This document shows positions 2,676-20,956 of a DNA stretch of 64,000 nt, in pieces (positions within the stretch are counted from its first letter, which is position 1; the number at the start of each line of letters is the position of its first letter). The position numbers and the translations under genes were made by a program. The DNA is from Urbifossiella limnaea (GTDB lineage: Bacteria > Planctomycetota > Planctomycetia > Gemmatales > Gemmataceae), in the NCBI RefSeq assembly GCF_007747215.1, contig NZ_CP036273.1:3828322-3892321 (forward strand). The letters run 5' to 3'. Below the pieces are notes generated by a model. The model was not told the origin of the DNA, did no database searches, and saw nothing but the letters and a program-made list of their open reading frames with translations.

Positions 2676-4811
2676 CTAGGTATTGGAATCGAGTTCCCAC
2701 ACGCTCGAATACGCCCCCGTTGCTTCGAAGTGGGCGATCATCCGGGCGTAGAACGGGTCCGCGGCGAGGGTCGCGCTGTCGCCGATAACTACCAGCGCAC
2801 GGCGGGCGCGGGTGAGGGCGACGTTCGTCCGCCGGGTGTCGGCCAGGAAGCCGATTTCGCCGGCCGGGTTCGAGCGCACCAGGCTGATGACCACCGCCTC
2901 CTTCTCGCGGCCCTGGAACCCGTCGACGCTGTCCACTTCCAGCGCCGGGTAGTCCTTCAGTAGTTCGCGCAGGAGCCGCACCTGCCCGCGGTACGGGGTG
3001 ATGACCGCGACCTGCTCGGCCGGCACGCCGGCGGCCAGCAGCGCCCGCACCTGCCGGACCGCGAGCGCCGCCTCCTGTCGGTTCAGGCGGCTCTCCGTCT
3101 CCTCTTCCTGTGCTTCATCGTACCCGGCCCCGGCCGTGTCGATGAAGCGCACGGGCGTCTCCGTCGGCGGCCCGGCTTCGACACCAGGTAGGTCGCACAG
3201 CCGGTGTGAGACGACCGATTCGTGCGGGATCAACTCACCGTCGTAGAACTCGGCCGACGAAAACGCCTGGATCGACTCGTGCATCCGGTACTGCACGACG
3301 AGTCGCCGTGCGACCTGACCTCCGTATCGTGCCACGACCCGCTCCATCAGGCTGACCGACAGCCCGGCGTCGGCGGCCTCCGGCGAGAGCACCGTCGGCG
3401 GCAGCTGGCAGTGGTCGCCGGCGAGGATCACGCGCCCGGCCCGCAGCAGCGGCAGCCACGACGCCGGCTCGGTCGACTGACACGCCTCGTCGAGCACGGC
3501 CGTGTCGAAGGTGCGGCGGCCGAGGGTCTGGCCGTCGAGGCCGGTGAGAGTGGCGCACACGACGCGGGCGTCGTCCAGCACGCGCTCGACGGCCAGGGCT
3601 TCGAGCCGGCGCACTTCCGCCAGCAGGTCGCGGGCCTCCTTCCGCATCGCGGCCTTCGCCCCGGGTTCGGGCTTGCCACGGGTCCACTTGTCGGCCGAGC
3701 GGAACAGTGCGAACGCCTCGCGGGCCACCTTGCGGGCCTGCCGGGCGTCCGGGTGCTTCTCGGCGAGCAGGTCGAGGGCGCGGGCGCGCAACTCGGGAAC
3801 GACGCGGGCCGGGTGGCCGAGTCGCACCGGGTGCAGCCCGACCCGCAGCAGCTTTTCGAGCAGGTTATCGACCGCGTGGTTGCTCGCGGCGCACGCCAAC
3901 ACCCGGTCCCCGCGGGCGACCAGGCAGCGAATCAGTTCCGCAACGGTCGTCGTCTTGCCGGTGCCGGGCGGGCCGTGAATGACGGCCACGTCCTTCGCCG
4001 CGAGCGCAAGGCGAACGGCGTCCTGCTGCGGCTCGTTCAGCGGGGTGAGAAACGTGGGCGGCGGCTGGCCGGCGTCGAACTCGGGCTCGCGCTCGCCGAG
4101 TAGCACCGCCCGCAGCGCCGCGAGTCGGTCGCCATCCGCGCCCGCGGCGCGCCGCAGCGCGTCTTGCTGGCGGAGCCGCGAAACTTCGTCCGGCGACAGG
4201 TCTAGGCGCCAACCGTCGTCGTCGTCAAAGTCGTAGTCCGGCGGTTCGATCGCCACGCCGACTGTCGCGTCGGCGCGGTCGTAGACGACGCCGCGGAACG
4301 TGACACCGCGCTGCGGCTTCGTCCGTGTCAGCACGACCGGCGAACCCGGCCCGAGGCGGTTCGGCGGGAGGGGCTCGGTGCGGCTGGCGCGGCCGAGCGT
4401 GAGCAGCAGCCGCCCGCCGAGGCCGAACTCGGATTCGCGCAGCACGAGCCCCAGGAGCGTGCCGCCGTCGCCGCGGTCGGTGCCCTCGGCGGCGCGGCGG
4501 CGGGCCTCCGCTTCTTCCGCGGCGGCTTCCAGGTCGAGGAACTTGGAGAGCTTGCCGAAGTGGTCGACGTTCGTGAAGTCGGCCTTGCCGGCGAAGCGGG
4601 CGCGGACGGGGCGGTCGTTGAACGCCGCGCCGTCGAGGGCGGCCACGGCCTTGGCCGCGTGGCGGTCGTCGAGCTCGACGGTGGCGCCGCGGCCGATCAG
4701 GGCGATCTTGCCGACGTGCTTGCGGTCGAGGCCGGTGGTGTTGCACACGAACGCGAGCACCGCCCCCGTGCTGCACCGCGGCGGGAGCGGGTCGAAGTGG
4801 ACGGCGGTCAT
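2676..4811 (-). CDS. SF1 UPF1/IGHMBP2-like helicase with N-terminal DbpA-type RNA-binding domain
   Basis: The protein has 711 residues. Residues about 10-75 match the DbpA C-terminal RNA-binding fold (GLDRKHVGKIALIGR, then a VELDD strand and an ALDGAAFNDRPVRAR end). The rest is a superfamily 1B helicase, with Walker A GPPGTGKTTT, a DEAC motif II, GDHCQLPPT (motif III), QYRMH (motif IV), SVDGFQGRE (motif V) and NVALTRAR (motif VI). UPF1-like enzymes translocate 5'-3' on RNA or DNA. The DbpA domain, normally found on a DEAD-box rRNA helicase, suggests binding to structured RNA, perhaps in ribosome assembly or RNA decay. That role is inference. The start at 4811 follows a weak ribosome-binding site. 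Confidence 0.88.
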   Translation of the reverse strand: MTAVHFDPLPPRCSTGAVLAFVCNTTGLDRKHVGKIALIGRGATVELDDRHAAKAVAALDGAAFNDRPVRARFAGKADFTNVDHFGKLSKFLDLEAAAEEAEARRRAAEGTDRGDGGTLLGLVLRESEFGLGGRLLLTLGRASRTEPLPPNRLGPGSPVVLTRTKPQRGVTFRGVVYDRADATVGVAIEPPDYDFDDDDGWRLDLSPDEVSRLRQQDALRRAAGADGDRLAALRAVLLGEREPEFDAGQPPPTFLTPLNEPQQDAVRLALAAKDVAVIHGPPGTGKTTTVAELIRCLVARGDRVLACAASNHAVDNLLEKLLRVGLHPVRLGHPARVVPELRARALDLLAEKHPDARQARKVAREAFALFRSADKWTRGKPEPGAKAAMRKEARDLLAEVRRLEALAVERVLDDARVVCATLTGLDGQTLGRRTFDTAVLDEACQSTEPASWLPLLRAGRVILAGDHCQLPPTVLSPEAADAGLSVSLMERVVARYGGQVARRLVVQYRMHESIQAFSSAEFYDGELIPHESVVSHRLCDLPGVEAGPPTETPVRFIDTAGAGYDEAQEEETESRLNRQEAALAVRQVRALLAAGVPAEQVAVITPYRGQVRLLRELLKDYPALEVDSVDGFQGREKEAVVISLVRSNPAGEIGFLADTRRTNVALTRARRALVVIGDSATLAADPFYARMIAHFEATGAYSSVWELDSNT

Positions 4812-4820
4812 GCCGGCATT

Positions 4821-5027
4821 CTACCGGCGGCCCACCATCACGTGCCGCCAGTGGTTCGATTGATTCGTCCGGTGCCGGTGGACGGCCTCGTCGTGGGTGC
4901 TATCGTCGTCGGTCGTGGCGGCGGGTTCGGTCGCGCTGGCGGGGTTGCTCTCGGTGCCGCGGGCGAAGCCCCACGCCGACAGCCCGACAATCACGGCCAG
5001 CCCGATGCCGAGACCGAATCGCGTCAT
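4821..5027 (-). CDS. Small secreted or membrane-anchored protein of unknown function
   Basis: This is a 68-residue protein. Its N terminus (MTRFGLGIGLAVIVGLSAWGF) looks like a signal peptide or single membrane anchor. A short low-complexity, acidic and His-rich tail follows. I chose the ATG at 5027 because an AGGGGG ribosome-binding site lies just upstream. A longer in-frame start at 5090 would put a charged stretch before the hydrophobic segment. The gene ends 9 nt before the helicase start, so it may lead that operon. I recognise no family. Confidence 0.5.
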   Translation of the reverse strand: MTRFGLGIGLAVIVGLSAWGFARGTESNPASATEPAATTDDDSTHDEAVHRHRTNQSNHWRHVMVGRR

Positions 5028-5086
5028 CACCCACCCCCTGAGGCGTCCTTGCCGCGACCAACCCATACCGTGGTGGCGCGGCCGAA

Positions 5087-6187
5087 TCAACCCGGCCCGA
5101 GCGGGTCGCGCTCCACCCGGCTGGCCCAGGCGGTCACGCCCGGGTGGTCCGCGGCCAGCTTCGCGGCCAGTTCCTCAACGGCCGGCCGCTCCGTCGCGTA
5201 GTGGCCGGGCACGATCACCCCCACCCCCGCGGCACGGGCCGACAGTGCGTCGTGGAACCTTAGCTCACCGGTTATAAACACATCGACACCCGCACGCACG
5301 GAATCTACCAAAAACTCCCCCGCCGCGCCGCACGCGACCCCTACCTTCCGCACAGTCCGGCTCGAGTCGCCGACGACCTGAACCGACGCGGCCCCGAGTT
5401 CGGTCTTCGCCCGTTTCGCCAGTTCACCCAGGGTCGCCGGCGCCTCCAGCTCGCCGACCCGCCCTTCCCCGCCGCTCTGGCCGGCACGAAGCTGGTAGAT
5501 GTCGAATGCCACTTCCTCGTAGCTGTGCGCGGCCCGCATCGCCCGCACGGCCGCGGTCACGTTCGCTTCGGGCACGAGAACCTCGAGCCGCCACTCGTCC
5601 ACGTCCTCGCGACGGCCCTTCTGCCCGACGACGGGGTTCGTGTCGTCGGTGCCAAAGAACGTGCCCTTACCCGGTACGCGGAAGCTGCACTGCTCGTACT
5701 TGCCGATCACGCCCGCGCCGGCGGCGAACAGCGCGTCGGACACCTTCGCCAGGTCCGCGTCGGGGACGTAGACGGCGATCTTGAACTGGCGTGGCCCCTC
5801 GCGCGGCCGCAGCGGGACCGCGTTCCGCACGCCGAGCCGCCGGCACAGGACGTCGTTGACGCCGCCGGGGCAGTTGTCGAACGCGGTGTGCGGCGAGTAG
5901 ACAGCGACGCCGGCGCGGGCCAGTGGCAGGACCACATCGCCGTCGCCCTTCCCCGCCACGAGCGTCTTCGCGCCGCGGAACAGGATCGGGTGGTGCGACA
6001 CGATCAGATCGGCCTTCTCGCCCACCGCTTCCGCAGCCACGTCGGGCGTCACGGTAAGGCACGTCATGACGCGCCCGACGGGCGCGGCCGGGTCGCCGAG
6101 CAGGAGGCCGACGTTGTCCCAGTCGGCGGCGGTGTGCGGCGGGGCGAAAGCGTTCAGCGCGGCGGCCAGGTCGGCGACGGTGGGCAT
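5087..6187 (-). CDS. Nif3-like dinuclear metal-centre protein
   Basis: The 366-residue protein belongs to the Nif3/YbgI/YqfO family, often annotated GTP cyclohydrolase 1 type 2 homologue. Metal-site motifs are visible: VSHHPILF, YSPHTAFDN and the C-terminal VPGHYATERP. The length, well above the roughly 250 residues of YbgI, and a central segment (about 135-240) indicate the inserted PII/CutA-like domain seen in YqfO. Members form toroidal hexamers with two metals per subunit, but their in vivo substrate is not settled. It is followed on the same strand by the small secreted protein. Confidence 0.9.
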   Translation of the reverse strand: MPTVADLAAALNAFAPPHTAADWDNVGLLLGDPAAPVGRVMTCLTVTPDVAAEAVGEKADLIVSHHPILFRGAKTLVAGKGDGDVVLPLARAGVAVYSPHTAFDNCPGGVNDVLCRRLGVRNAVPLRPREGPRQFKIAVYVPDADLAKVSDALFAAGAGVIGKYEQCSFRVPGKGTFFGTDDTNPVVGQKGRREDVDEWRLEVLVPEANVTAAVRAMRAAHSYEEVAFDIYQLRAGQSGGEGRVGELEAPATLGELAKRAKTELGAASVQVVGDSSRTVRKVGVACGAAGEFLVDSVRAGVDVFITGELRFHDALSARAAGVGVIVPGHYATERPAVEELAAKLAADHPGVTAWASRVERDPLGPG

Positions 6188-7988: not shown

Positions 7989-8411
7989 TCACGCCGAACG
8001 GGCGGCCCGGCCGAGCAGCAGCCCGACGCCGAAGCCGACGAGGATCGCCGGCAGCGGGTAGCGGCGGACCAGGCTCGCCACCTCGCGGCCGAAGTCGCCC
8101 GCACGCTCGCCGACAGCGTCGTAGGCGTCGTGCGCCAACCGTTGGACGTTCTCCGTGTTCACATTCCCGGCCCAGTCGCCGAGCCGGTCGCGGGCCTGGC
8201 CGGCCAGGTCGGTCACGCGGTCCTTCGCCTGGCCCGCCAGGTCGCCAGCCCGGTCGGCCAGGTTCTGCGCGGTGTCGCGGATCGTGCCCGTAACGCCGCC
8301 GGCCTGCTCGGTGGCATTCTTCGCGGCCGAGGCGGCCTCGTTCACGCCCGACTTCGCCGCCCGCGCCGCGTCGTCGATCCCCGACTTCACGTTGTTCTTC
8401 ATGTCCGCCAT
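7989..8411 (-). CDS. YqjD/ElaB-like (DUF883-type) amphipathic membrane-anchored protein
   Basis: The 140-residue protein consists of Ala/Asp/Lys-rich amphipathic repeats (residues 1-105, resembling LEA or apolipoprotein-like helices). It ends in one glycine-rich membrane helix, LPAILVGFGVGLLLGRAA. This is the layout of the ElaB/YqjD family, C-tail-anchored inner-membrane proteins linked to stationary phase and ribosome association in enterobacteria. The ATG at 8411 has a GGAGG site. It sits 49 nt downstream of the AI-2E-type permease on the same strand. A second such protein occurs at 16521-17249. Confidence 0.7.
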   Translation of the reverse strand: MADMKNNVKSGIDDAARAAKSGVNEAASAAKNATEQAGGVTGTIRDTAQNLADRAGDLAGQAKDRVTDLAGQARDRLGDWAGNVNTENVQRLAHDAYDAVGERAGDFGREVASLVRRYPLPAILVGFGVGLLLGRAARSA

Positions 8412-8459: not shown

Positions 8460-10292
8460 CTACCCGACCAATGCACCCGCCGTGCCAACGACCCTCGCCT
8501 TCCCGTTCTCCGCCGACGGCACGGCGGCCGCGTCAAAAACCGAGTGCAACTCCGTCAGCCGTTTCCGCGTGGCCGCCAGCGTGTGATCGACCCAGTCGGC
8601 CCCGCCGGCCTGAGCATCGTCGTCCGCGAAATCCTCGCCGCGGCCCCACCGGCCGACGACGAGCCGAAGGTCCGGGAAGCGGGCCTTGATCCGCGTTACC
8701 AGGTAGCGCGTGTGTGCGACGCCGCCGGGCGGTAGCGACGCGATCACGACCGCCGCCGGCTTCGTCCGTTCGATCCGCGTCAGCAACTCGGCGGCGAGCA
8801 CCTCGTCGGTTGCCAGCTCCACGTCCCAGCGGTTCGGGTCGAGGAGTCGGCTCATCAATTCGGCCCCGGCCTGGTCGACGTCGTCGCGCGCCGCGGCGAT
8901 GAGCACTCGGACGGGTCGCTCACCCTCGGTCGCGGCCGGCGGGTGTTCGAGCGCCACCTCCTCGCCGATCTCGCGGGCGGCGGTAGTGACAAACCGCAAC
9001 CCTTCGTCGGGCAGGTCGTGGTCCTGGTGGTCCCGCTTCGCCAGGCACAGCGCCGGCACGATGACGCGGTCGTACACGACGGCCGCGTCGTCGCCGTCGC
9101 CCGTCGCCAGGGCGATCTTGCTCGCCTCGTCCTGGTCGCGGGCCGCGAGCCGCTGGTAGAACGCGACGCGGTCCGGCAGGACGGGCTCGTCGCCGAGCAG
9201 CACGTCGAGGAACTCGAACCGCGAAACGTGCTTCCCGAGTACCAGCAGGCAGACCGTCAGTGGGCCCGACAGAATGAGCCCGATCGGCCCCCACAGGAAC
9301 GCCCAGAACCCGGCCGCCACCAGCTGAGCCACCTCCGACAGGCCCATGCTCGGGCCGTACAGGAGCGGCTCAAAAACGTTGTTCGAGATCAGTTCCAGCA
9401 CGATGAACAGGGCGGCGACGGCGATCGTCATCCCCCAACCGTCGGTGACGGCGAGGACGTACAGGGCCGGCGGCACGGCCGCGATCCACGACCCGATGTA
9501 CGGCACGTACCTCATCACGAACGCCAGCACCCCCCACATCACCGCATACTTCACGCCCATCAGCAGCAGGCCGACCAAGACGATGAGCGCGAACCCGGCG
9601 TTCAGCAGCAACTGCGTGAACAGGAACTTGCTGACGCGCCGACTGGCGTCGTCCACGGCCTTCGTCGTGGTCGTCACCTTGCCGTGTCCGGTAAGCCGGA
9701 TGACGCGGTTCCGGAGGTCTTCCCGCTTTATCAGCATGAACACGGTGAGGAGGAACGCGAACGCCGCCTGGCCGACGAACTCGAGCGCCGGGCTGGCGAA
9801 CGTCTCGACCTGCCCCATCCAGTTCGGGCCGGGGCTTTCGACGACCACGGGTGGCGGGGCGCCCGGCTGCTGGTCGCGCGGCTGCGGGGCGAAGATGTTG
9901 CCGATCTCCTCGATCAACTTTCCGAACCGGCTTTCGCCGGACCCCACTACCGCGACCTTGACCTCGGTCAGCTTGCGGACGATTTCGTCCTTGCGGTCGG
10001 GGAGCACGTCCGACAGCGACGCGATCTGCGCGGCGAGGATCGCCCCGAGGCCGCCGCTCACGAGCAGCGCGAGGCCGACCACGAGAATCACGGAAAGGGT
10101 CCGGCCGATGCCGCGTCGCTCGAACCACGTCACGACCGGGCTGAAGACGAAGGTGAGGAAGATCGCCAGGGCTACGGGGATGAAAATCGACCGCGCCCAG
10201 TACAAGACGCCGATCGTCGCCGCGGCAGATACGATGCTCGCCAACACGACCTGGGCGCGCTGCCATTCCTGAGCATAGCCGTGCTGAGACAT
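8460..10292 (-). CDS. AI-2E family permease with extra C-terminal cytoplasmic domain
   Basis: The protein has 610 residues. The first 360 or so form the AI-2E/YdiK-type polytopic domain, with helices near the N terminus (GVLYWARSIFIPVALAIFL), a soluble insert, then a cluster of helices ending in GPLTVCLLVLGKH. The remaining 250 residues are soluble. Their last half (VRVLIAAARDDVDQ, a PAAVVIASLPPGG loop, LRLVVGRWGRGEDF) resembles a Rossmann-like, B12-binding-type fold without an obvious DxHxxG motif. Family members export or exchange small molecules or ions. A GGGGGAG site precedes the ATG at 10292, which I preferred to an in-frame start at 10361. Confidence 0.8.
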   Translation of the reverse strand: MSQHGYAQEWQRAQVVLASIVSAAATIGVLYWARSIFIPVALAIFLTFVFSPVVTWFERRGIGRTLSVILVVGLALLVSGGLGAILAAQIASLSDVLPDRKDEIVRKLTEVKVAVVGSGESRFGKLIEEIGNIFAPQPRDQQPGAPPPVVVESPGPNWMGQVETFASPALEFVGQAAFAFLLTVFMLIKREDLRNRVIRLTGHGKVTTTTKAVDDASRRVSKFLFTQLLLNAGFALIVLVGLLLMGVKYAVMWGVLAFVMRYVPYIGSWIAAVPPALYVLAVTDGWGMTIAVAALFIVLELISNNVFEPLLYGPSMGLSEVAQLVAAGFWAFLWGPIGLILSGPLTVCLLVLGKHVSRFEFLDVLLGDEPVLPDRVAFYQRLAARDQDEASKIALATGDGDDAAVVYDRVIVPALCLAKRDHQDHDLPDEGLRFVTTAAREIGEEVALEHPPAATEGERPVRVLIAAARDDVDQAGAELMSRLLDPNRWDVELATDEVLAAELLTRIERTKPAAVVIASLPPGGVAHTRYLVTRIKARFPDLRLVVGRWGRGEDFADDDAQAGGADWVDHTLAATRKRLTELHSVFDAAAVPSAENGKARVVGTAGALVG

Positions 10293-10396
10293 GGAACTCC
10301 CCCGGACGAATGGACCCGGGGCCGGAACGTGAGCAACGGCGGTGCCGGAACCGGGAAGCAAAGCGCTGCCGCGTAGCGGGAAGTGGAGTTCGCGGG

Positions 10397-11566
10397 CTAC
10401 TCGGCCACCGGCAGCCGCACGGTGAACTCGGCCCCCCGCCCCGGCCCGTCGCTGCGGACCGAGACACGACCGCCGTGCAGTTGCACGAGTCGCTGTACGA
10501 GCGCCAGCCCGATGCCAAGGCCGCCCTGGGAGCGGTTGAGGGTGCGGTCCACCTGCGTGAACAGGTCGAACACCCGCGGCAGCACGTCGGCCGGGATGCC
10601 GACACCGCTGTCACGCACGGTTACGACCACCTCCGCGCCACTCCGCTCGGCGGCTAGCTTGACCGTGCCGCCCTCGGGCGTGTACTTCGCGGCGTTGTTG
10701 AGCAGGTTCGAGAACACCTGGGCCAGCCGGACGCGGTCGCCGTACAGCGGCACCGACTCGGCGGGCACGCACACCTCGAACCGCACCTTTGCCTTGTCCA
10801 GCGCCGGCCGGCTGATCTCCGCCGCGGCGTCCAGTACCGCCCGCAGGGTGATCGGTTCCGCCTGCACCCGGAGCTTGCCGGTCGTGATCCGCGACACGTC
10901 AAGGAGGTCGTCGATGAGGCGGACCATCTGGCCGACCTGGCGCTCGAGCATGGCCCGGCTGCGCTCGACGGCCTCGGCGTCGTCGGCCGTCAGCCGCATG
11001 ATCTCGAGGGCGTTGCGGATCGGGGCCAGGGGGTTGCGCAACTCGTGCGCCAGCATGGCGATGAAGTCGTTCTTCCGGCGGTCCTCGTCGCGGAGGGCGT
11101 CGTTGGCGCGGGCCAACTCGGCCGTCCGCGCGCGGACCTTTTCCTCGAGTCGTTCCTCCTGCTGGCGCTGCCGCATCGCGTAGAGTATGACGCGCTCCAG
11201 GAGCGCCGGCGACAGCCCGGACTTCTCCAGGTAGTCTGAAACGCCCAGGGTCAGCGCTTCGAGCGCCACGTCGCGCTGGCCACGGCCGGTGAGCAGGATG
11301 ATCGGCGGCCGCCGTTCCAGCTCCTGGGCCTCGCGGAGCAGGTCGATGCCCGTGCGGCCGCCGAGACGGTAGTCGAGTAAGACGGCGTCGTGCTTCCCGG
11401 CGCGGAGTTGTGCCAGCCCGTCGTCGTAGGTCGCCGCGTGGTCGAGCTTGAACGCCACGCCGCCCACGTCCGCCAGCATCTCGCGGGTGAGCAGATAGTC
11501 CTCTCGGTCGTCGTCGATCACGAGGACCGCCAGCGGCTCCGCAATCATCTCGGCCAGGTCTCGCAC
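10397..11566 (-). CDS. Receiver-domain histidine kinase (REC-HisKA-HATPase)
   Basis: The 389-residue protein starts with a receiver domain (phosphoacceptor Asp in VLLDYRLGG). A coiled linker, a HisKA dimerisation helix with the phospho-His in MLAHELRNPLAP, and a HATPase_c domain (N box FSNLLNNAAKY, G1 DSGVGIP, G2 GGLGIGLAL) follow. It has no membrane segment, so it is cytoplasmic and probably relays phosphate from an upstream protein. It is the last gene of an operon with the Rcp1-like regulator and the ethylene-sensor-like kinase. I chose the GTG at 11566 because GGGAGG lies 8 nt upstream. ATG 11548 is an alternative. Confidence 0.9.
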   Translation of the reverse strand: MRDLAEMIAEPLAVLVIDDDREDYLLTREMLADVGGVAFKLDHAATYDDGLAQLRAGKHDAVLLDYRLGGRTGIDLLREAQELERRPPIILLTGRGQRDVALEALTLGVSDYLEKSGLSPALLERVILYAMRQRQQEERLEEKVRARTAELARANDALRDEDRRKNDFIAMLAHELRNPLAPIRNALEIMRLTADDAEAVERSRAMLERQVGQMVRLIDDLLDVSRITTGKLRVQAEPITLRAVLDAAAEISRPALDKAKVRFEVCVPAESVPLYGDRVRLAQVFSNLLNNAAKYTPEGGTVKLAAERSGAEVVVTVRDSGVGIPADVLPRVFDLFTQVDRTLNRSQGGLGIGLALVQRLVQLHGGRVSVRSDGPGRGAEFTVRLPVAE

Positions 11567-11584: not shown

Positions 11585-12046
11585 TCAGGGGGCGTCGGCT
11601 TCGGGGGCCAACTCGACGATCTCGAGCCAGTACTTGCCGATCGACCGGACGACCTCGACGAGGGCGTCGAACGTGACCGGCTTGGTGATGTAGCTGGCGG
11701 CCGACAAGTCGTAGCTACGGAGGATGTCCTCTTCCGCCTTGCTGGTCGTCATGACCACGACCCGGATGCCTCGGAGGCGGGGGTCGGCGCGGATCGCCCG
11801 AAGCGCCTCGCGGCCGTCCATCCGCGGCATGTTCAGGTCGAGCAGGATGATACTCGGCCACGGCGCCGCCTCGGCATTGGTGTACTTACCGCGGCGCTGG
11901 AGGTAGTCGAGCAGTTCCTCGCCGTCCTCGACGAACCGCAAGTCGTTGGCCAGGTGCGCGGCGTCGAACGCCTCGCGGGTGAGGGCGCGGTCGTCGGGGT
12001 CGTCGTCGGCCACCAGGATCGTAACGGGCTTGGTACGGTTGGGCAT
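11585..12046 (-). CDS. Rcp1-like single-domain response regulator
   Basis: This 153-residue stand-alone receiver domain is of the Rcp1 type found next to bacteriophytochrome-like kinases. It has a DDDPDDRAL acidic pocket, a phosphoacceptor Asp in ILLDLNMPRMDG, a conserved Thr in VMTTSK and a Lys in YITKPVTF. There is no output domain, so it probably acts as a phosphate shuttle. Its ATG overlaps the stop of the upstream kinase (TAATG), which means tight translational coupling. The kinase's HisKA region is also of the phytochrome-like type, so the two are a likely cognate pair. Confidence 0.92.
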   Translation of the reverse strand: MPNRTKPVTILVADDDPDDRALTREAFDAAHLANDLRFVEDGEELLDYLQRRGKYTNAEAAPWPSIILLDLNMPRMDGREALRAIRADPRLRGIRVVVMTTSKAEEDILRSYDLSAASYITKPVTFDALVEVVRSIGKYWLEIVELAPEADAP

Positions 12047-14085
12047 TACTGGCCTGGCGCGGTTGGGGCGGGGGCCGGGAGGGTGACCACGAACGTGGCG
12101 CCGCCGTCGGGCCGACCGCGGGCGGTGATCGTCCCGCCGTGGCGGTCGACGATTTTTCTACAGATCGCCAGCCCGACGCCGGTCCCCTCGTACTCGTCGC
12201 GCCCGTGCAGCCGCTGGAACACCTGAAAAATGCGGGCGGCGTGCCGGTCCTCAAAGCCGATGCCGTTGTCGGACACCGTCACCACCCAGTTCACGCCGTC
12301 GCGCTCGGCCGCGACCCGCACCACCGGCGGGACGCCGGGGCGGTGGAACTTGAGCGCGTTGCCGATCAGGTTCTGGAACAACTGCCGCATCTGGCTCGGG
12401 TCTCCCATCACCTCGGGCAGCACACCCACCTCGACGCGCCCGCCGACCTTCTCCGCCCGCAGTTCCAGGTCGTCCACCACGTCGGCGACGGTAGCCGCGA
12501 GGCTGACGCGGGTGAACGGCTTGGCGTGAGTCGTGACCCGGCTGTAGCTCAGCAGATCGTCGATGAGCCGGCTCATCCGCCCGGCCGACGCCTTCATCTT
12601 GGTGACATACCCTTGCCCCTCGTTGGGAAGGCCGGGCCCGTATTTGGTGACCAGCAGGTCGCCGAAGGCTTGGATCTTCCGCAGCGGCTCCTGCAGGTCG
12701 TGGCTCGCCACGTAGGCGAACTGCTCGAGTTCGGCGTTACTCCGTCGCAACTCTCGCGCCGCGGCCGATTCCCGTTCCTCGACCCGCCGGCGTTCTTCGA
12801 CCTCCGCCAGCAGCGCGGCGTTGGCTTGCATCAACTCGGCCGTCCGGTCCGCGACCAGGCGTTCGAGCACTTCGGCCTCGCGCTTCTGGTCGTCGATGTC
12901 CGTGCACGTGCCGAACCAACGGACGACGGCGCCGGCCGAGTTGCGCTCGGGAAGCGCCTGTCCCAGGAACCAGCGGTAGGCGCCGTCCGCCCGGCGAAGG
13001 CGGTACTCGATCTCGTACGGTTCACCGGTGGCGAGGGATTGCCGCCAGCGGTCCCGGGCGCGGGGCTGGTCGTCGGCGTGGAACACACCGTTCCAGCCCT
13101 CGCCGTCTGTCGACCCGAAGGGCACGCCGGTGTAGTCGTACCAGCGGCGGTTGTAGTACTCGTGGTAGCCGTCCGGGCGGGTGACCCAAACGATTTGCGG
13201 GACGAAGTCGGCGAGCGTGCGGAACCGCGCCTCGCTCACCCCGAGCGCCGTTTCCGCGACCGCCCGGCGGCCCATCTCCACGCCGAGCGCCTGCTCACGG
13301 GCCAGGGCGTCGGCCAAGGCCGCGCGCGCCTTCCGGTGGGCGACCCGCTGGGCGTGGCCGAGGGCTGCACACCCGACGCCGCAGAACCCGAACGCAGCCA
13401 GAGCCACCTGGTCGCTTACCCGCTGGACGACGAACGAGTCGCGGGGGTGGACGTAGAAGTACACGATGCCGGACATGCTGATGAGCAGCGTTGCGACGGC
13501 GGGGCCGAAGCCGGACTGCCACGACACGTACACGACGGCGAGGATTGCCAGCACGAACGCGTGATCGGTACCGAGCAGCGGGTCGAGGGCGGCCCGCATG
13601 AAGATGGCCGCCACGCCGGCGACCGCTGCGAACACGTAATCCCAGATCCACCCCCGTCGGGCGGCCAGCGGCGCGTGTGCGTTCGTGGCCCCGGACGACT
13701 TACCGGACACGCGGCGGATCAGCTCGTCGAGTTGCGGTACGGCAGGGACCAGAGCACACACCGTTGCCCACGAAACGATGGCGGTAACGAGTTTCATCAC
13801 TCCCTGCGCCCGATACGCGGGGTAGTGGAACATCAGGGCGTCGCCGAGGTGGGTGAACCCGCAGCTCAGGATGAACAGGGCGAACAGCACGAACAGCCAC
13901 GAGAATGGCACCTCCCGCTTCCGCCGCAACAACGACACGAGTACGAGGGGGATCGAGAGGTACGCCACCCAGATTGCCAGGTCCGACCCGACGTGGAGCC
14001 AGACCAATTCCGGCGTCCAGTTCCCGCACGCCATGCGCGGCACGAACCCCTCGGGGTCGAAGAGCTTCGACCAGAATTCGCCCAT
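12046..14085 (-). CDS. Ethylene-receptor-like sensor histidine kinase (EBD-DUF4118-PAS-HisKA-HATPase)
   Basis: In this 679-residue protein, residues about 25-125 form three membrane helices that match the plant ETR1 ethylene-binding domain. Asp35 sits in SDLAIWVAYLSIPL and Cys75/His79 in SCGFTHL, the same spacing as ETR1 Asp25, Cys65 and His69, which hold the copper cofactor. A second membrane module (about 148-250) looks like DUF4118, the KdpD-type sensor bundle. Then come a PAS domain (about 285-405), a phytochrome-type HisKA (YVASHDLQEPLRK) and HATPase_c (FQNLIGNALKFH, GTGVGLAI). It would sense ethylene or a similar ligand at the membrane and phosphorylate the Rcp1-like partner. The ETR1 Glu38 position is Val here. 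Confidence 0.92.
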   Translation of the reverse strand: MGEFWSKLFDPEGFVPRMACGNWTPELVWLHVGSDLAIWVAYLSIPLVLVSLLRRKREVPFSWLFVLFALFILSCGFTHLGDALMFHYPAYRAQGVMKLVTAIVSWATVCALVPAVPQLDELIRRVSGKSSGATNAHAPLAARRGWIWDYVFAAVAGVAAIFMRAALDPLLGTDHAFVLAILAVVYVSWQSGFGPAVATLLISMSGIVYFYVHPRDSFVVQRVSDQVALAAFGFCGVGCAALGHAQRVAHRKARAALADALAREQALGVEMGRRAVAETALGVSEARFRTLADFVPQIVWVTRPDGYHEYYNRRWYDYTGVPFGSTDGEGWNGVFHADDQPRARDRWRQSLATGEPYEIEYRLRRADGAYRWFLGQALPERNSAGAVVRWFGTCTDIDDQKREAEVLERLVADRTAELMQANAALLAEVEERRRVEERESAAARELRRSNAELEQFAYVASHDLQEPLRKIQAFGDLLVTKYGPGLPNEGQGYVTKMKASAGRMSRLIDDLLSYSRVTTHAKPFTRVSLAATVADVVDDLELRAEKVGGRVEVGVLPEVMGDPSQMRQLFQNLIGNALKFHRPGVPPVVRVAAERDGVNWVVTVSDNGIGFEDRHAARIFQVFQRLHGRDEYEGTGVGLAICRKIVDRHGGTITARGRPDGGATFVVTLPAPAPTAPGQ

Positions 14086-14196
14086 CGTGCCGTACCCTCA
14101 CTGCGGCCGACCGCCGGCCCTTTTCATGGTAGGACTGTCGGGTAGAATTGAACTTCTCGCACACCCCGCGCCGACACGCACCCCGAGACGCCGCCA

Positions 14197-15648
14197 ATGC
14201 CCAGTCCCGCCGCCGCGTCGGACGCCGCCTCCCCGGACGAGTCACCCCAGGTCCAGCAGCGCGTCCTCGTCGTCGAAGACCTGCCCGACAACCGCGAATC
14301 GCTGAAGACGCTGCTCAAGCTAGCGCTCAAGCTCGAAGTGGACACTGCCGAGGACGGGGCCAAGGCGCTGGCGCTGCTGGCCGAGCGGCCGTACAGCCTG
14401 GTCATCACCGACCTGCAGATGCCGCGGATGGACGGCATGAAGCTCATCCAGAAGATCCAGGACGACGGCATCCCATCGACAGTGATCGTGACGACGGGCC
14501 ACGGGTCGGTGCCGGACGCCGTCGAGGCGATGCGAATGGGGGTGTACGACTTCCTCCTGAAGACCGACGAGCCGCAGCGGCTCATCCGCATGGCTCAGCG
14601 AGCGCTCAAGGAGCGCCGCCTCCAGGACGAGGTGGCCGCCCTCCGCGAGCAGTTGCACGGCGGCCACACCTTTCTCAACGTGCTGAGCAAGAGCCCGAAG
14701 ATGCACGACGTCTTCGAACTCATCTCGCAGATCGCCGACACCACCGCGACCGTGATGATCATCGGCGAGACCGGCACCGGGAAGGAGCAGGTGGCGCGGG
14801 CCATCCACGACTCCTCCGCCGAGACTCGCTCCGGGCCGTTCGTGCCGGTGAACTGTGCTGCGTTCAACGAGAACCTGCTCGAGAGCGAGTTGTTCGGCCA
14901 CGAGAAGGGGTCGTTCACCGGGGCCGACAAGAAGCGCGTCGGCCGGTTCGAGCAGGCCCACGGCGGCACTCTCTTTCTCGACGAGATCGGCGACGTGCCG
15001 ATGAGCATGCAGGTGAAGTTGCTGCGCGTGCTACAAGAGCGGCGGTTCGAGCGCGTCGGCGGGGGGGAGCCGATCGAGATCGACGTGCGGGTCGTGGCCG
15101 CGACGCACCGGAACATGGACGACCTGATCCGCGAGGGAAAGTTCCGCGAAGACCTGTACTTCCGGCTGAACGTGGTGCGGATCGACCTACCACCACTGCG
15201 CGACCGGCCGGAGGACGTGGAGGTGCTGGTCAACCACTTCATCCGCAAATTCGCCCGACCCGGGCGGGCGGTGCCGACGGTGGACCCGGAGGCGCTGGAG
15301 GCGCTGAAGAAGGCGCCGTGGCCGGGGAACATCCGACAGTTGGAGAACGCCGTCGAGCGGGCGTGCGTGACGTGCAAGGACGGCGTGATCCGCGTTCACA
15401 ACCTGCCGCGCGACATCGCCGGGCGCGTCGAGGCAAAGAACCCGTTCCAGGTCGACCTGTCCCGCCCGCTCCCGGATCAGCTGGCCGAGATCACGGCCGC
15501 GTTCGAGGAACGTTACCTGCGGAAGGCGCTGCGGAAGACGCGCGGCCACGTCGGCAAGTGCGCCACCATCACGGGCCTGTCGCGGCGGAGCATCACGGAC
15601 AAGATCGCACAGTACAAGATCGAGAAGAGCGACTTCAAGAAGGACTGA
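14197..15648 (+). CDS. Sigma-54-dependent response regulator, NtrC family
   Basis: The 483-residue protein contains a receiver domain (Asp in VITDLQMPRMDG), an AAA+ domain (Walker A GETGTGKEQ, Walker B LFLDEIGD) and a C-terminal Fis-type helix-turn-helix that ends near residue 475. The sigma-54 contact loop reads GSFTGA instead of GAFTGA, a conservative change seen in some functional activators. It is transcribed divergently from the ethylene-sensor operon with a 111-nt gap, so it is a plausible additional output for that system. This is inferred from position only. Its last 14 nt overlap the convergent carbonic anhydrase gene. Confidence 0.93.
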   Translation: MPSPAAASDAASPDESPQVQQRVLVVEDLPDNRESLKTLLKLALKLEVDTAEDGAKALALLAERPYSLVITDLQMPRMDGMKLIQKIQDDGIPSTVIVTTGHGSVPDAVEAMRMGVYDFLLKTDEPQRLIRMAQRALKERRLQDEVAALREQLHGGHTFLNVLSKSPKMHDVFELISQIADTTATVMIIGETGTGKEQVARAIHDSSAETRSGPFVPVNCAAFNENLLESELFGHEKGSFTGADKKRVGRFEQAHGGTLFLDEIGDVPMSMQVKLLRVLQERRFERVGGGEPIEIDVRVVAATHRNMDDLIREGKFREDLYFRLNVVRIDLPPLRDRPEDVEVLVNHFIRKFARPGRAVPTVDPEALEALKKAPWPGNIRQLENAVERACVTCKDGVIRVHNLPRDIAGRVEAKNPFQVDLSRPLPDQLAEITAAFEERYLRKALRKTRGHVGKCATITGLSRRSITDKIAQYKIEKSDFKKD

Positions 15649-16411
15649 GGTGCCGCGTCACCAGCGGTGCCGCGGCCAGTGTCAGGCCCAGGTCCACCAG
15701 TTCCTGCGGCCCCGTCGGTGCGGGCCGGAGCTGGCCGCCGCGGATCGTTCCTACCTTCCCCTCGGCGAGGTCGAAAACGCCCTGCACGACCTTCACGCCG
15801 GCGTCCTCGGGGCGCAGCTCCTGGGCCAACTGATAGGCGATCATCGCGGTGTTCAGGAACACCGCCGCCTCGGCCAGTGCCTTCGAGTACCCGGGGTCAT
15901 TCGCCACGGACGGCCCCCACGTCTGTTCCAGTGACAGCGCCGCGCTGCGGACGGCGACGAGGATGTGGTTCACCACCGCCCTGACCGACCGGCTGAAGGC
16001 GACACCGGCGGAGTGCTTCGGGCTCAGGTACGCTTGCACGGCAGCAGCGACGGCCCCGCAGCCGGTGTGACCCAAGACCGTGAGCAACCGCAGTGACGGG
16101 CGGAAGTTGGCGAGTGCGTACTCGATGCTGCCGAGTGCCTCGTCGCCGAGCACGTTCCCGGCCACGCGCACCACGAACAGCTCGTTCGGTCCGGCGTCGA
16201 ACACGAGTTCCAAAGGGGCCCGCGCGTCCGAGCAGCCGAGGACAACGCCGTAGGGAGACTGCTTCGGCGTGCCGGCAGCCGCGAGCGGGCCTGCCTGCTC
16301 CGCGGCGTAGCGGGCGTTCCCCTCGGCGAGCCAACTCAGTGCCTCAGCGGCGTCCGTCGGCAGGTGCGGGGTGCCGTCACCCGGCAGGCGGAAGCGGGTC
16401 ACGAAATCCAT
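15635..16411 (-). CDS. Beta-class carbonic anhydrase
   Basis: The 258-residue protein carries the beta-carbonic anhydrase zinc site: Cys-x-Asp-x-Arg in GCSDARAPLE, then His-x-x-Cys in LGHTGCGAV. These residues bind zinc and orient the catalytic water for reversible CO2 hydration. The N-terminal EALSWLAEGNARYA stretch is also typical. There is no signal peptide, so it is cytoplasmic. I chose the ATG at 16411, preceded by CGGAG; a start at 16501 adds 30 atypical residues. It overlaps the 3' end of the NtrC-type gene by 14 nt tail-to-tail. Confidence 0.9.
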   Translation of the reverse strand: MDFVTRFRLPGDGTPHLPTDAAEALSWLAEGNARYAAEQAGPLAAAGTPKQSPYGVVLGCSDARAPLELVFDAGPNELFVVRVAGNVLGDEALGSIEYALANFRPSLRLLTVLGHTGCGAVAAAVQAYLSPKHSAGVAFSRSVRAVVNHILVAVRSAALSLEQTWGPSVANDPGYSKALAEAAVFLNTAMIAYQLAQELRPEDAGVKVVQGVFDLAEGKVGTIRGGQLRPAPTGPQELVDLGLTLAAAPLVTRHLSPS

Positions 16412-16520
16412 GGCCGGGCTCCGGTGGGGATAAGCCGCCGCCCCGCAGTCGGACCGGTCCGACCGCGGGGCGGCGTTCGCCCGGAGGATATTGAATCTCA
16501 CTGCGGGACGGTGGCAACGG

Positions 16521-17249
16521 CTATACGCTGGAGACGGTCGGCGCGTAACCCGGGCGGGTCACGCCGTTGTTCCCGGACACCCGGCTGGCGACGTTCTGAA
16601 CCGCGCCGTCAACCAGCCGCGGCACCTGCTCGTTGACGCTCTGCTTGAGCGACGCCAGGGCCGTCGTCAGCGCCTGCCGTGCGAGTTGCTCCACCTCGCT
16701 GCCGACCATCGCCCACAGGCCGGCGAAGATCCCCGGCCGGGACGGCACCGTGCGGGACGCGGCTCCGTGCCCGAACGGCGTGAAGTCGTGCGACGCTGTG
16801 TCGGGACGACCCTCGGGCGCGGGCCCGCGAAAGCCGCGGTTCGTCAGTGGCCGGGAGTCCTTCTCGCCGAACAGCACGTAACCCGTCACGAAGCCCGCGG
16901 CAGCGCTGACACCCAGCGCCGCACCAGGATGGTTGCCGACGCACTCGCCCAGGTTGATCGACGCCACCGCCTCCTTCACCGATACGAGCGTCTCTTTCAC
17001 CGACTCCTTTGCGGCGGCGACCGCTTCCTGGACCGTCTCCTTCATCGCCGTCGGGGCCGTCGTCACCGTCTCCTTCACCGCCTGGACGGTGTCGGAAATG
17101 GTGGTCGTGGCAGTCTGAATGGTGCCGAGCACCTGCGTTTCGAGGGCCGACACCTTGGCGGTGATCGACTCGCGGGTCTGCTCCATCTCCCGCTCGATCC
17201 GGTCCGGATCCGCGTCGGCGCCGGTCACGCCTGGGGTTGCGTCTGCCAC
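16521..17249 (-). CDS. YqjD/DUF3618-like amphipathic protein with central membrane segment
   Basis: This is a 242-residue protein. Residues 15-105 are a long Thr/Val/Glu/Lys amphipathic helix region (REMEQTRESITAKVSALE and repeats of SVKETL type). A hydrophobic segment with GAALGVSAAAGFVTGYVLFG (about 110-130) follows, then a disordered tail. The layout is that of YqjD/DUF883 and DUF3618 proteins. The GTG at 17249 has an AGGAG site and lies inside the 3' end of the YqjE-like gene, a 25-nt overlap, so the two form a coupled pair as in the yqjDE arrangement. A role in envelope stress is inferred from family. Confidence 0.7.
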   Translation of the reverse strand: MADATPGVTGADADPDRIEREMEQTRESITAKVSALETQVLGTIQTATTTISDTVQAVKETVTTAPTAMKETVQEAVAAAKESVKETLVSVKEAVASINLGECVGNHPGAALGVSAAAGFVTGYVLFGEKDSRPLTNRGFRGPAPEGRPDTASHDFTPFGHGAASRTVPSRPGIFAGLWAMVGSEVEQLARQALTTALASLKQSVNEQVPRLVDGAVQNVASRVSGNNGVTRPGYAPTVSSV

Positions 17250-17653
17250 GTTAGATTCTCCTGGAGGGCGTTGAAGGTCTTGTCCGGGAGCGGGTTGAAA
17301 CTCTCAAACAGGTTCCGCGCGAAGAAGCCGAGCGCGACGCCGCCGGCGGTGCAGAGCCCGGCGAAGAGCATCCAGGCGCCCCACTCTGGGAGGTGTCCGG
17401 CGTCGCGCAGGATGTAGACGAGGCTGAACATCAGCGCCATGCCGCCGATGGTCAGTAGCGCGACGCTCACCCCGCCGTACACCATCGCCCGTTTGGTGCG
17501 GCTCATGTCCTCCCGGATTTCGGCCTTGAGCATTTCGAGCTGCTGACGGGCGAGTTTCTGCATGTCGCCGATGATCCCCGACACCAACTCCGTGACCGTC
17601 CCTTGAGGGGTGGCGGGCGCGGGGGTGGGGGTAGTGACTTCGGGGGCGGTCAT
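17225..17653 (-). CDS. YqjE-like phage-holin superfamily III membrane protein
   Basis: The 142-residue protein has a Pro-rich N terminus, an amphipathic segment (LVSGIIGDMQKLARQQLEML) and two membrane helices (about 65-90 and 98-120). It matches the YqjE/DUF1469 family that usually accompanies YqjD. The ATG at 17653 is preceded by GAGGAG. An upstream TTG at 17686 is possible but weaker. It is the first gene of the pair with the YqjD-like protein and follows the GH13 gene on the same strand, separated by a palindrome. Confidence 0.75.
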   Translation of the reverse strand: MTAPEVTTPTPAPATPQGTVTELVSGIIGDMQKLARQQLEMLKAEIREDMSRTKRAMVYGGVSVALLTIGGMALMFSLVYILRDAGHLPEWGAWMLFAGLCTAGGVALGFFARNLFESFNPLPDKTFNALQENLTWQTQPQA

Positions 17654-17695
17654 GACGGGTCGGCTCCTCGGGGGAACGTCTGTCAACTCCGGGAA

Positions 17696-17712
17696 TGCAT
17701 CCGGCGTGCCAG
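17696..17712. repeat. 17-bp dispersed word, copy 1
   Basis: The word ATGCATCCGGCGTGCCA occurs here and again at 20940-20956. In both places a partial or complete copy of the GCCCGGGGAC palindrome lies within about 60 nt, so both words appear to belong to one mosaic intergenic repeat. Confidence 0.6.
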
Positions 17713-19705: not shown

Positions 19706-20605
19706 TCAGGTAGGCACGGGGTCGGGCCGACCGGCGAGGCGGTGGCGGCCGGCGGGGGTCAGTCCGGACCCGAACTTCGTCGCGTAAACTTGCGTGAGTT
19801 CTGCGCCGAAGAGCACGATCAGCGACGAGTAGTAAATCCACACCAGCAGCACGACGAACGACCCGGCCGCGCCGTACGTGGAGCCGATCGACGCGGTACC
19901 GAGGTAGAGGCCGATGAGGTATTTCCCCACGGTGAACAGCAGGGCCGTGACCACGGCCCCGACGCCCACATCGGACCAGTCCGGGCGGGCGTGCGGCAGG
20001 TACTTGTAGATCATGCCGAACATCAGCGTGGTGACCAGGAAGCCGGCCACCAGGTTGGCGGCACCCATCCACGCGTCGCCGTACGGCATCCACCGGTTGA
20101 CGAGGCCGCCGAGGGCGGTCAGGAACGCGCTGAACACCAGCGAGACGAGCAGCAAGAACGCCATCCCGCAGATCATCGTGAACGACGCAACCCGGTCGCG
20201 GACGAGGCCGAGAATGCCGGTCCTGGAGTCCTCAGGCTTCACGTTCCACACGGTGTTGAGGGCGTCCTGGAGGGACGTGAAAACGCCGGTGGCCCCGAAG
20301 AACAGCGCGACGATGCCGACGACCGTAGACACGATGCCGCCGCCGGGCGTTTGGGTCGACGCCAGCATCGCCTGGACCGCCTTCGCGCCTTCTTCGCCGA
20401 TCAGGTCGTTCAACTGGTTGGCGATCTCGCCGCGGGTCGCCTGCTCGCCAAACGCCGCCCCCGCGATCACCGTCACGAGGAGAAGCATCGGGGCGATGGA
20501 CAGTGCCGTGTAGAACGCCAGCGCGGCGCCGAGTGTCATAGCCTTGTCGGCCAGGAACTCGGCCAGCGTCTGCTTGATGAGCCGGCCGGTCTCGGTGAGT
20601 TTCAT
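19706..20605 (-). CDS. YihY/BrkB family inner-membrane protein
   Basis: The 299-residue protein has six predicted membrane helices and the family N-terminal segment LGAALAFYTALSIAPMLLLV. Conserved internal stretches include TLMFGMIYKYLP and GSTYGAAGSFVVLLVWIYYSS. YihY/BrkB proteins were once called ribonuclease BN but are now regarded as membrane proteins of uncertain transport function. I used the ATG at 20605; a GTG at 20635 would add ten residues that run into the terminator upstream. It is probably co-transcribed with the GH13 gene. Confidence 0.88.
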   Translation of the reverse strand: MKLTETGRLIKQTLAEFLADKAMTLGAALAFYTALSIAPMLLLVTVIAGAAFGEQATRGEIANQLNDLIGEEGAKAVQAMLASTQTPGGGIVSTVVGIVALFFGATGVFTSLQDALNTVWNVKPEDSRTGILGLVRDRVASFTMICGMAFLLLVSLVFSAFLTALGGLVNRWMPYGDAWMGAANLVAGFLVTTLMFGMIYKYLPHARPDWSDVGVGAVVTALLFTVGKYLIGLYLGTASIGSTYGAAGSFVVLLVWIYYSSLIVLFGAELTQVYATKFGSGLTPAGRHRLAGRPDPVPT

Positions 20606-20636
20606 GGGGACAGCATCCGGACGGGGGGTACACACG

Positions 20637-20939: not shown

Positions 20940-20956
20940 ATGCATCCGGCGTGCCA
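20940..20956. repeat. 17-bp dispersed word, copy 2
   Basis: A second exact copy of the word at 17696-17712. A partial arm of the GCCCGGGGAC palindrome lies about 45 nt to its left, at 20893-20904. Confidence 0.6.

Follow-up and report, generated by a model that had tools for sequence, protein, structure and literature searches.

Ethylene sensing by bacteria has been shown experimentally, in the literature examined, in cyanobacteria and in Azospirillum (PMC6682694, PMC11819568). In the latter, the N-terminal part of the AzoEtr1 kinase, AzoEtr1[1-130], binds ethylene, neither the D35A nor the C75A mutant gives rescue, and a putative RpoN site has been reported (PMC11819568). Ethylene binding by the plant receptor AtETR1 is cited as requiring seven residues of its ethylene-binding domain (EBD), namely D25, Y32, I35, P36, I62, C65 and H69. 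A search of the accessible literature for a planctomycete ethylene receptor found none; since its coverage lacked the key EBD surveys, we make no claim of priority. Here we analyse a 64,000-nucleotide stretch (hereafter the window) of the genome of Urbifossiella limnaea, a planctomycete of the family Gemmataceae. The window encodes an EBD-containing sensor histidine kinase as part of a gene cluster (Table 1). The reading we favour, to which we give a probability of roughly two in three, is that the kinase is a DUF4118-PAS kinase with a copper/ethylene input, driving a sigma-54-dependent membrane-stress response via an NtrC-type activator.

Table 1 Features of the EBD kinase cluster and its surroundings (positions in the window).
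Feature	Position	Strand	Remarks
140-aa alanine-rich protein, C-terminal hydrophobic segment	7989..8411	-	candidate sigma-54 target
AI-2E-family membrane protein, C-terminal extension	8460..10361	-	conserved fourth gene; likely ATG near 10292
Sigma-54 -24/-12-like site TGGCACGGCGGGTGCA	8472..8487	-	61 nt before gene 7989-8411
Sigma-54-like site CGGCACCGCCGTTGCT	10332..10347	-	about 40 nt before probable AI-2E start; identical in L222
Receiver-HisKA-HATPase protein	10397..11566	-	third gene of the cluster; Pfam, conserved order
Single-domain response regulator, Rcp1/RcpA/RcpB type	11585..12046	-	probable phospho-acceptor Asp70
EBD-DUF4118-PAS sensor histidine kinase	12046..14085	-	679 aa; phospho-acceptor His462
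HATPase_c catalytic domain	12070..12405	-	residues 561-672; Pfam; N, G1, G2 boxes present
HisKA dimerisation/phospho-acceptor domain	12532..12729	-	residues 453-518; Pfam
PAS domain	12907..13158	-	residues 310-393; Pfam PAS_3
DUF4118, second membrane sensor	13324..13638	-	residues 150-254, four TM helices; Pfam, AlphaFold
Ethylene-binding (ETR1_N) domain	13699..14085	-	residues 1-129, three TM helices; Pfam, alignments, AlphaFold
Divergent NtrC-type regulator	14197..15648	+	receiver, sigma-54 AAA+ with GSFTGA, Fis HTH
Sigma-54-like site	17696..17711	-	before holin_3_6/DUF3618 pair (17225-17686, 16521-17249)
Sigma-54-like site	20941..20956	-	306 nt before YihY-like membrane protein (19706-20635)

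The kinase open reading frame is complete, with coordinates and strand exact. All five Pfam domains of its product lie above their curated cut-offs, including ETR1_N (residues 26-120, 119 bits against a cut-off of 27, E=1.1e-34) and DUF4118 (44 bits against 28.4), and the histidine kinase part is intact in both its H462 and its N/G1/G2 boxes. An AlphaFold2 model of the EBD-DUF4118 portion (50 aligned sequences; mean pLDDT 90, pTM 0.62) places the EBD helices at residues 25-55, 62-84 and 91-129, three N-terminal membrane helices that hydropathy also supports, and gives DUF4118 four membrane helices, the last of which extends toward the PAS domain. This model returned no significant fold match when compared with the PDB using Foldseek, and the window EBD matched no PDB sequence; bacteriophytochrome-type kinases are among the nearest solved structures to the kinase half.

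An earlier note on this DNA, made by reading the sequence, had matched the first three membrane helices to the EBD of ETR1 and had placed D35, Y42, P46, C75 and H79 at the positions of the corresponding ETR1 residues. Alignment bears this out, and the complete ligand set that the note claimed can be extended, as I45 and I72 are conserved too, so that all seven required residues are present, together with K98, the counterpart of ETR1 K91. With ETR1_N above its cut-off, the protein's membership in the ethylene-receptor sensor-domain family holds, and 'ethylene receptor' itself is a prediction from sequence. In a direct alignment with AzoEtr1, whose gene was taken from the A. brasilense Sp7 plasmid, the seven residues and K98 have identical numbering in the two proteins. 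The Val found at the position of ETR1 Glu38 (position 48 here), to which the note had correctly drawn attention, was considered as a weakness of the receptor case and rejected: AzoEtr1 has Ala at this position, which is small or hydrophobic in all but 1 of 127 distinct EBDs, and the single Glu belongs to a decayed domain. Val48 therefore reflects the bacterial norm and is harmless.

Across EBDs of other layouts, drawn from several phyla, the Asp, Tyr, Cys and His residues are invariant (110/110 in the alignment), in a sample where strongly decayed domains are under-represented because EBD profiles or patterns served to find most of the loci. This invariance and the Pfam score together argue that the assignment of the window domain as an EBD is not due to chance. 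The N-terminal Cys20, which the window EBD retains and which possibly forms a dimer disulfide as in plants, is kept in all 108 readable EBDs of other layouts, and is gone in 6 of the 17 proteins that combine an EBD with DUF4118. Strict conservation of the copper ligands across phyla, and of Cys20 in the other layouts, would also fit an EBD that binds Cu(I) but whose physiological signal is not ethylene: it might report on copper, on redox state or on some other small ligand, for instance CO or a different alkene. We think this unlikely, since the equivalents of I35, P36 and I62, residues that ETR1 requires to bind ethylene although they are not copper ligands, are nearly always conserved across EBDs, and since the bacterial EBDs tested in the literature examined (SynEtr1, AzoEtr1 and those of Geitlerinema cells) all bind ethylene.

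The survey of planctomycete EBD kinases that had been proposed in the earlier note was run, and found EBDs in 42 of 392 Planctomycetota genomes and in 21 of 59 near relatives, so an EBD in a planctomycete is neither rare nor unusual, though the note had called it notable. Other phyla with EBDs include Bacteroidota, Verrucomicrobiota, Myxococcota, Acidobacteriota and Cyanobacteriota, with more besides, and EBDs are found on alphaproteobacterial and cyanobacterial plasmids. The plasmid-borne EBD kinases (PLSDB) include one at NC_019690.1 22265-22597, and one of the plasmids, from Pseudanabaena, is conjugative, which implies that the EBD can be mobile; no relative was found on viral contigs. The arrangement of an EBD followed by DUF4118 is shared by 17 aligned proteins, all from Gemmataceae, that form one group in the EBD tree with weak support, while DUF4118 was detected in none of 75 other EBD proteins by Pfam scan and in none of 110 EBD proteins of other layouts by a local profile. 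The double membrane sensor with its PAS domain thus stands as the note described it, and what had appeared to be an unusual layout turns out to be that of a Gemmataceae subfamily; the idea that it is unique to the window protein is rejected. The window genome itself encodes a second EBD-DUF4118 kinase (C1:6414709, 6414709-6415050; loci L002 and L139), which has extra PAS domains. No partners from the window cluster (Rcp1-type, NtrC and so on) were found within the 12 kb examined around this second kinase. Some 0.9 kb upstream of it there is a sigma-54-like site (TGGCACGACCGATGCA).

Within the EBD-DUF4118 subfamily, Tyr42 is kept in 14 of the 17 proteins, Cys75 in 15 and His79 in 16. The EBD of Zavarzinella formosa (L151) carries Y42C and C75I, that of L219 carries Y42C, P46S, C75V and H79V, and that of L143 carries Y42F; the decay in L151 and L219, which lie on long branches, may represent one event or two. 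The earlier note had regarded loss of Cys75 or His79 in close homologues as telling against its claim. Two same-layout homologues do lack the Cys, and one of them the His as well, but the window protein's own site is intact and the claim is not refuted for it. Z. formosa has, besides the decayed EBD kinase (4366-5151, minus strand), an EBD kinase of a different layout that is intact and lies roughly 8 kb away (12964-13326, plus strand).

In three relatives' modules, the EBD is absent from the kinase altogether. The kinase of L223 (G003) begins with MGEFWGRLF, the EBD's own N-terminus, and then runs straight into DUF4118, and the kinase of L224 (G472) is also without an EBD. In L225, which comes from the nearest relative (G001, 85% identical in compared columns), the kinase starts with MGELWGRVIDPTG and then jumps, and the gene is truncated by unrelated sequence, so that two of the three qualify as clean EBD deletions. 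At least three separate absences are forced by well-supported branches in a tree of the NtrC-type, regulator and receiver-kinase proteins. That the pathway persists in these lineages without ethylene sensing shows the EBD to be one accessory input, alongside DUF4118 and PAS.

The window copy might therefore be losing its ethylene function too, like its same-layout relatives and, at the extreme, the window EBD could be vestigial and heading for loss, with DUF4118 and PAS doing the sensing. The loss of C75 in L151 and L219, the three absences, the Y42F change in L143 and the missing Cys20 in 6 of 17 proteins all point this way; the fact that the window copy retains the seven residues, K98 and Cys20, and the frequency with which Tyr42, Cys75 and His79 are kept across the 17 proteins, make it an improbable account of this particular kinase. 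Least credible by far is a generic membrane-anchored kinase whose three helices serve for dimerisation or anchoring alone, for although the EBD helices of plant receptors are also part of the dimer, kinases without an EBD exist and DUF4118 could suffice for signalling, a mere anchor would not hold Asp, Tyr, Cys and His invariant in 110 divergent sequences from several phyla.

The neighbourhood of the kinase is itself conserved. The genes for the AI-2E fusion, the receiver-kinase, the Rcp1-type regulator and the EBD kinase follow one another on the minus strand, and the gene for the NtrC-type activator diverges from them. The regulator, whose gene shares one base with the stop codon of the kinase (TAATG), has RcpA, RcpB and Rcp1 among its best PDB matches, in agreement with its earlier description as Rcp1-like. 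The order NtrC, kinase, response regulator, receiver-kinase is kept in about a dozen Gemmataceae modules; NtrC homologues scoring at least ~680 bits adjoin 16 modules in relatives (counting one split over two contigs), and AI-2E homologues are found in nine relatives. Next to the NtrC gene in the window lies a Pro_CA carbonic anhydrase-like gene (15635-16501), a homologue of which was found in none of the other modules examined. The Rcp1-type regulator is a fragment in L221 and L223 and frameshifted in L224, and the kinases persist there. We make no claim of a correlated loss of the EBD and this regulator: L221 has mostly lost the regulator and has an intact EBD, and both modules with a decayed EBD (L151, L219) retain the regulator.

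Allowing up to one mismatch to the sigma-54 consensus TGGCACN5TTGCW, we counted 5 sites in the window, where 0.99 would be expected; 0 of 100 shuffles reached this number. The relatives' modules contained 35 against 3.8 expected, an approximately nine-fold excess in which the counts are not independent because some of the genomes are close kin, and control EBD loci contained 5 against 1.8. Downstream of four of the window sites lie membrane or stress-type genes on the minus strand. Among these is the gene at 7989-8411, whose product is YqjD/ElaB-like by eye and has no Pfam match; five other modules have a like site 63-115 nt ahead of its homologue. A further sequence, TGGCACGGAAGGTGCA, is shared by seven modules from one sister genus; where its position was checked, it lies about 114 nt upstream of the kinase start. 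In the window, the 111-bp intergenic region upstream of the kinase (14086-14196) contains no sigma-54-like site at up to two mismatches. The window genome has rpoN. Genome-wide, a narrow sigma-54 pattern, picked after the window matches had been seen, gave 8 matches against 8 in a reversed control and hence no excess, so that it is the clustering near the module alone that is notable.

In the copper/ethylene reading that we favour, Cu(I) would be held by C75 and H79 of the first three membrane helices, positioned by D35/K98, and ethylene or a similar small alkene would be bound through the Cu(I). By analogy with ETR1, SynEtr1 and AzoEtr1, we infer that ethylene probably reduces kinase activity. 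As the four-helix DUF4118 sensor and PAS would feed the same phytochrome-type kinase, ethylene would modulate the kinase and not solely control it. Phosphate from His462 would then pass to the Rcp1-type regulator encoded by the overlapping gene, to the receiver domain of the receiver-kinase, or to both and, as gene order and neighbourhood suggest, on to the divergent NtrC-type activator at the end of the cascade. Together with sigma-54, this activator would switch on the membrane and stress genes around the cluster and, in the sister genus, the kinase operon as well. A wider view, which we offer tentatively, is that ethylene may serve Gemmataceae as a cue from the environment. It would be sensed by a detachable copper-ethylene domain, an input that lineages have lost several times, set on a conserved DUF4118-PAS/Rcp1/receiver-kinase/NtrC cascade with a sigma-54 membrane-stress regulon as its output.

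The cluster presents an intact ethylene-type sensor in a conserved planctomycete setting with a predicted NtrC/sigma-54 transcriptional output, and so bears on whether non-photosynthetic bacteria outside Proteobacteria sense plant or algal ethylene. Since some lineages lost this input and kept the pathway, natural pairs of orthologues with and without an EBD exist, and these loss variants make the contribution of the EBD to the kinase testable.

Of the known systems, AzoEtr1-AzoRR (PMC11819568) shares with the window system an EBD-PAS-HK arrangement with identical numbering of D35, C75, H79 and K98, and a receiver-only regulator whose gene overlaps the kinase stop codon. AzoEtr1, however, is 525 aa long and lacks DUF4118, AzoRR has 135 aa where the Rcp1-type window regulator has 153, and neither a receiver-kinase nor an NtrC-type neighbour is described for it, whereas the window cluster has both. 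SynEtr1/UirS (Synechocystis slr1212; PMC6682694) likewise combines an EBD and a second sensor within a single histidine kinase and has a regulator downstream, but there a cytosolic cyanobacteriochrome takes the place of the membrane-embedded DUF4118, and the output runs through slr1213 and a small RNA. AtETR1 and the other plant receptors share the three-helix EBD, including all seven required residues and K91, carry a GAF domain in place of DUF4118/PAS, and signal chiefly via a Ser/Thr kinase rather than by His-Asp transfer. In KdpD-type kinases, a four-helix DUF4118 precedes the kinase as it does here, but the window protein has no KdpD or Usp domains and its DUF4118 follows an EBD. What is new here is an EBD kinase that heads a conserved cluster with enriched sigma-54-type sites, and in which the EBD is dispensable.
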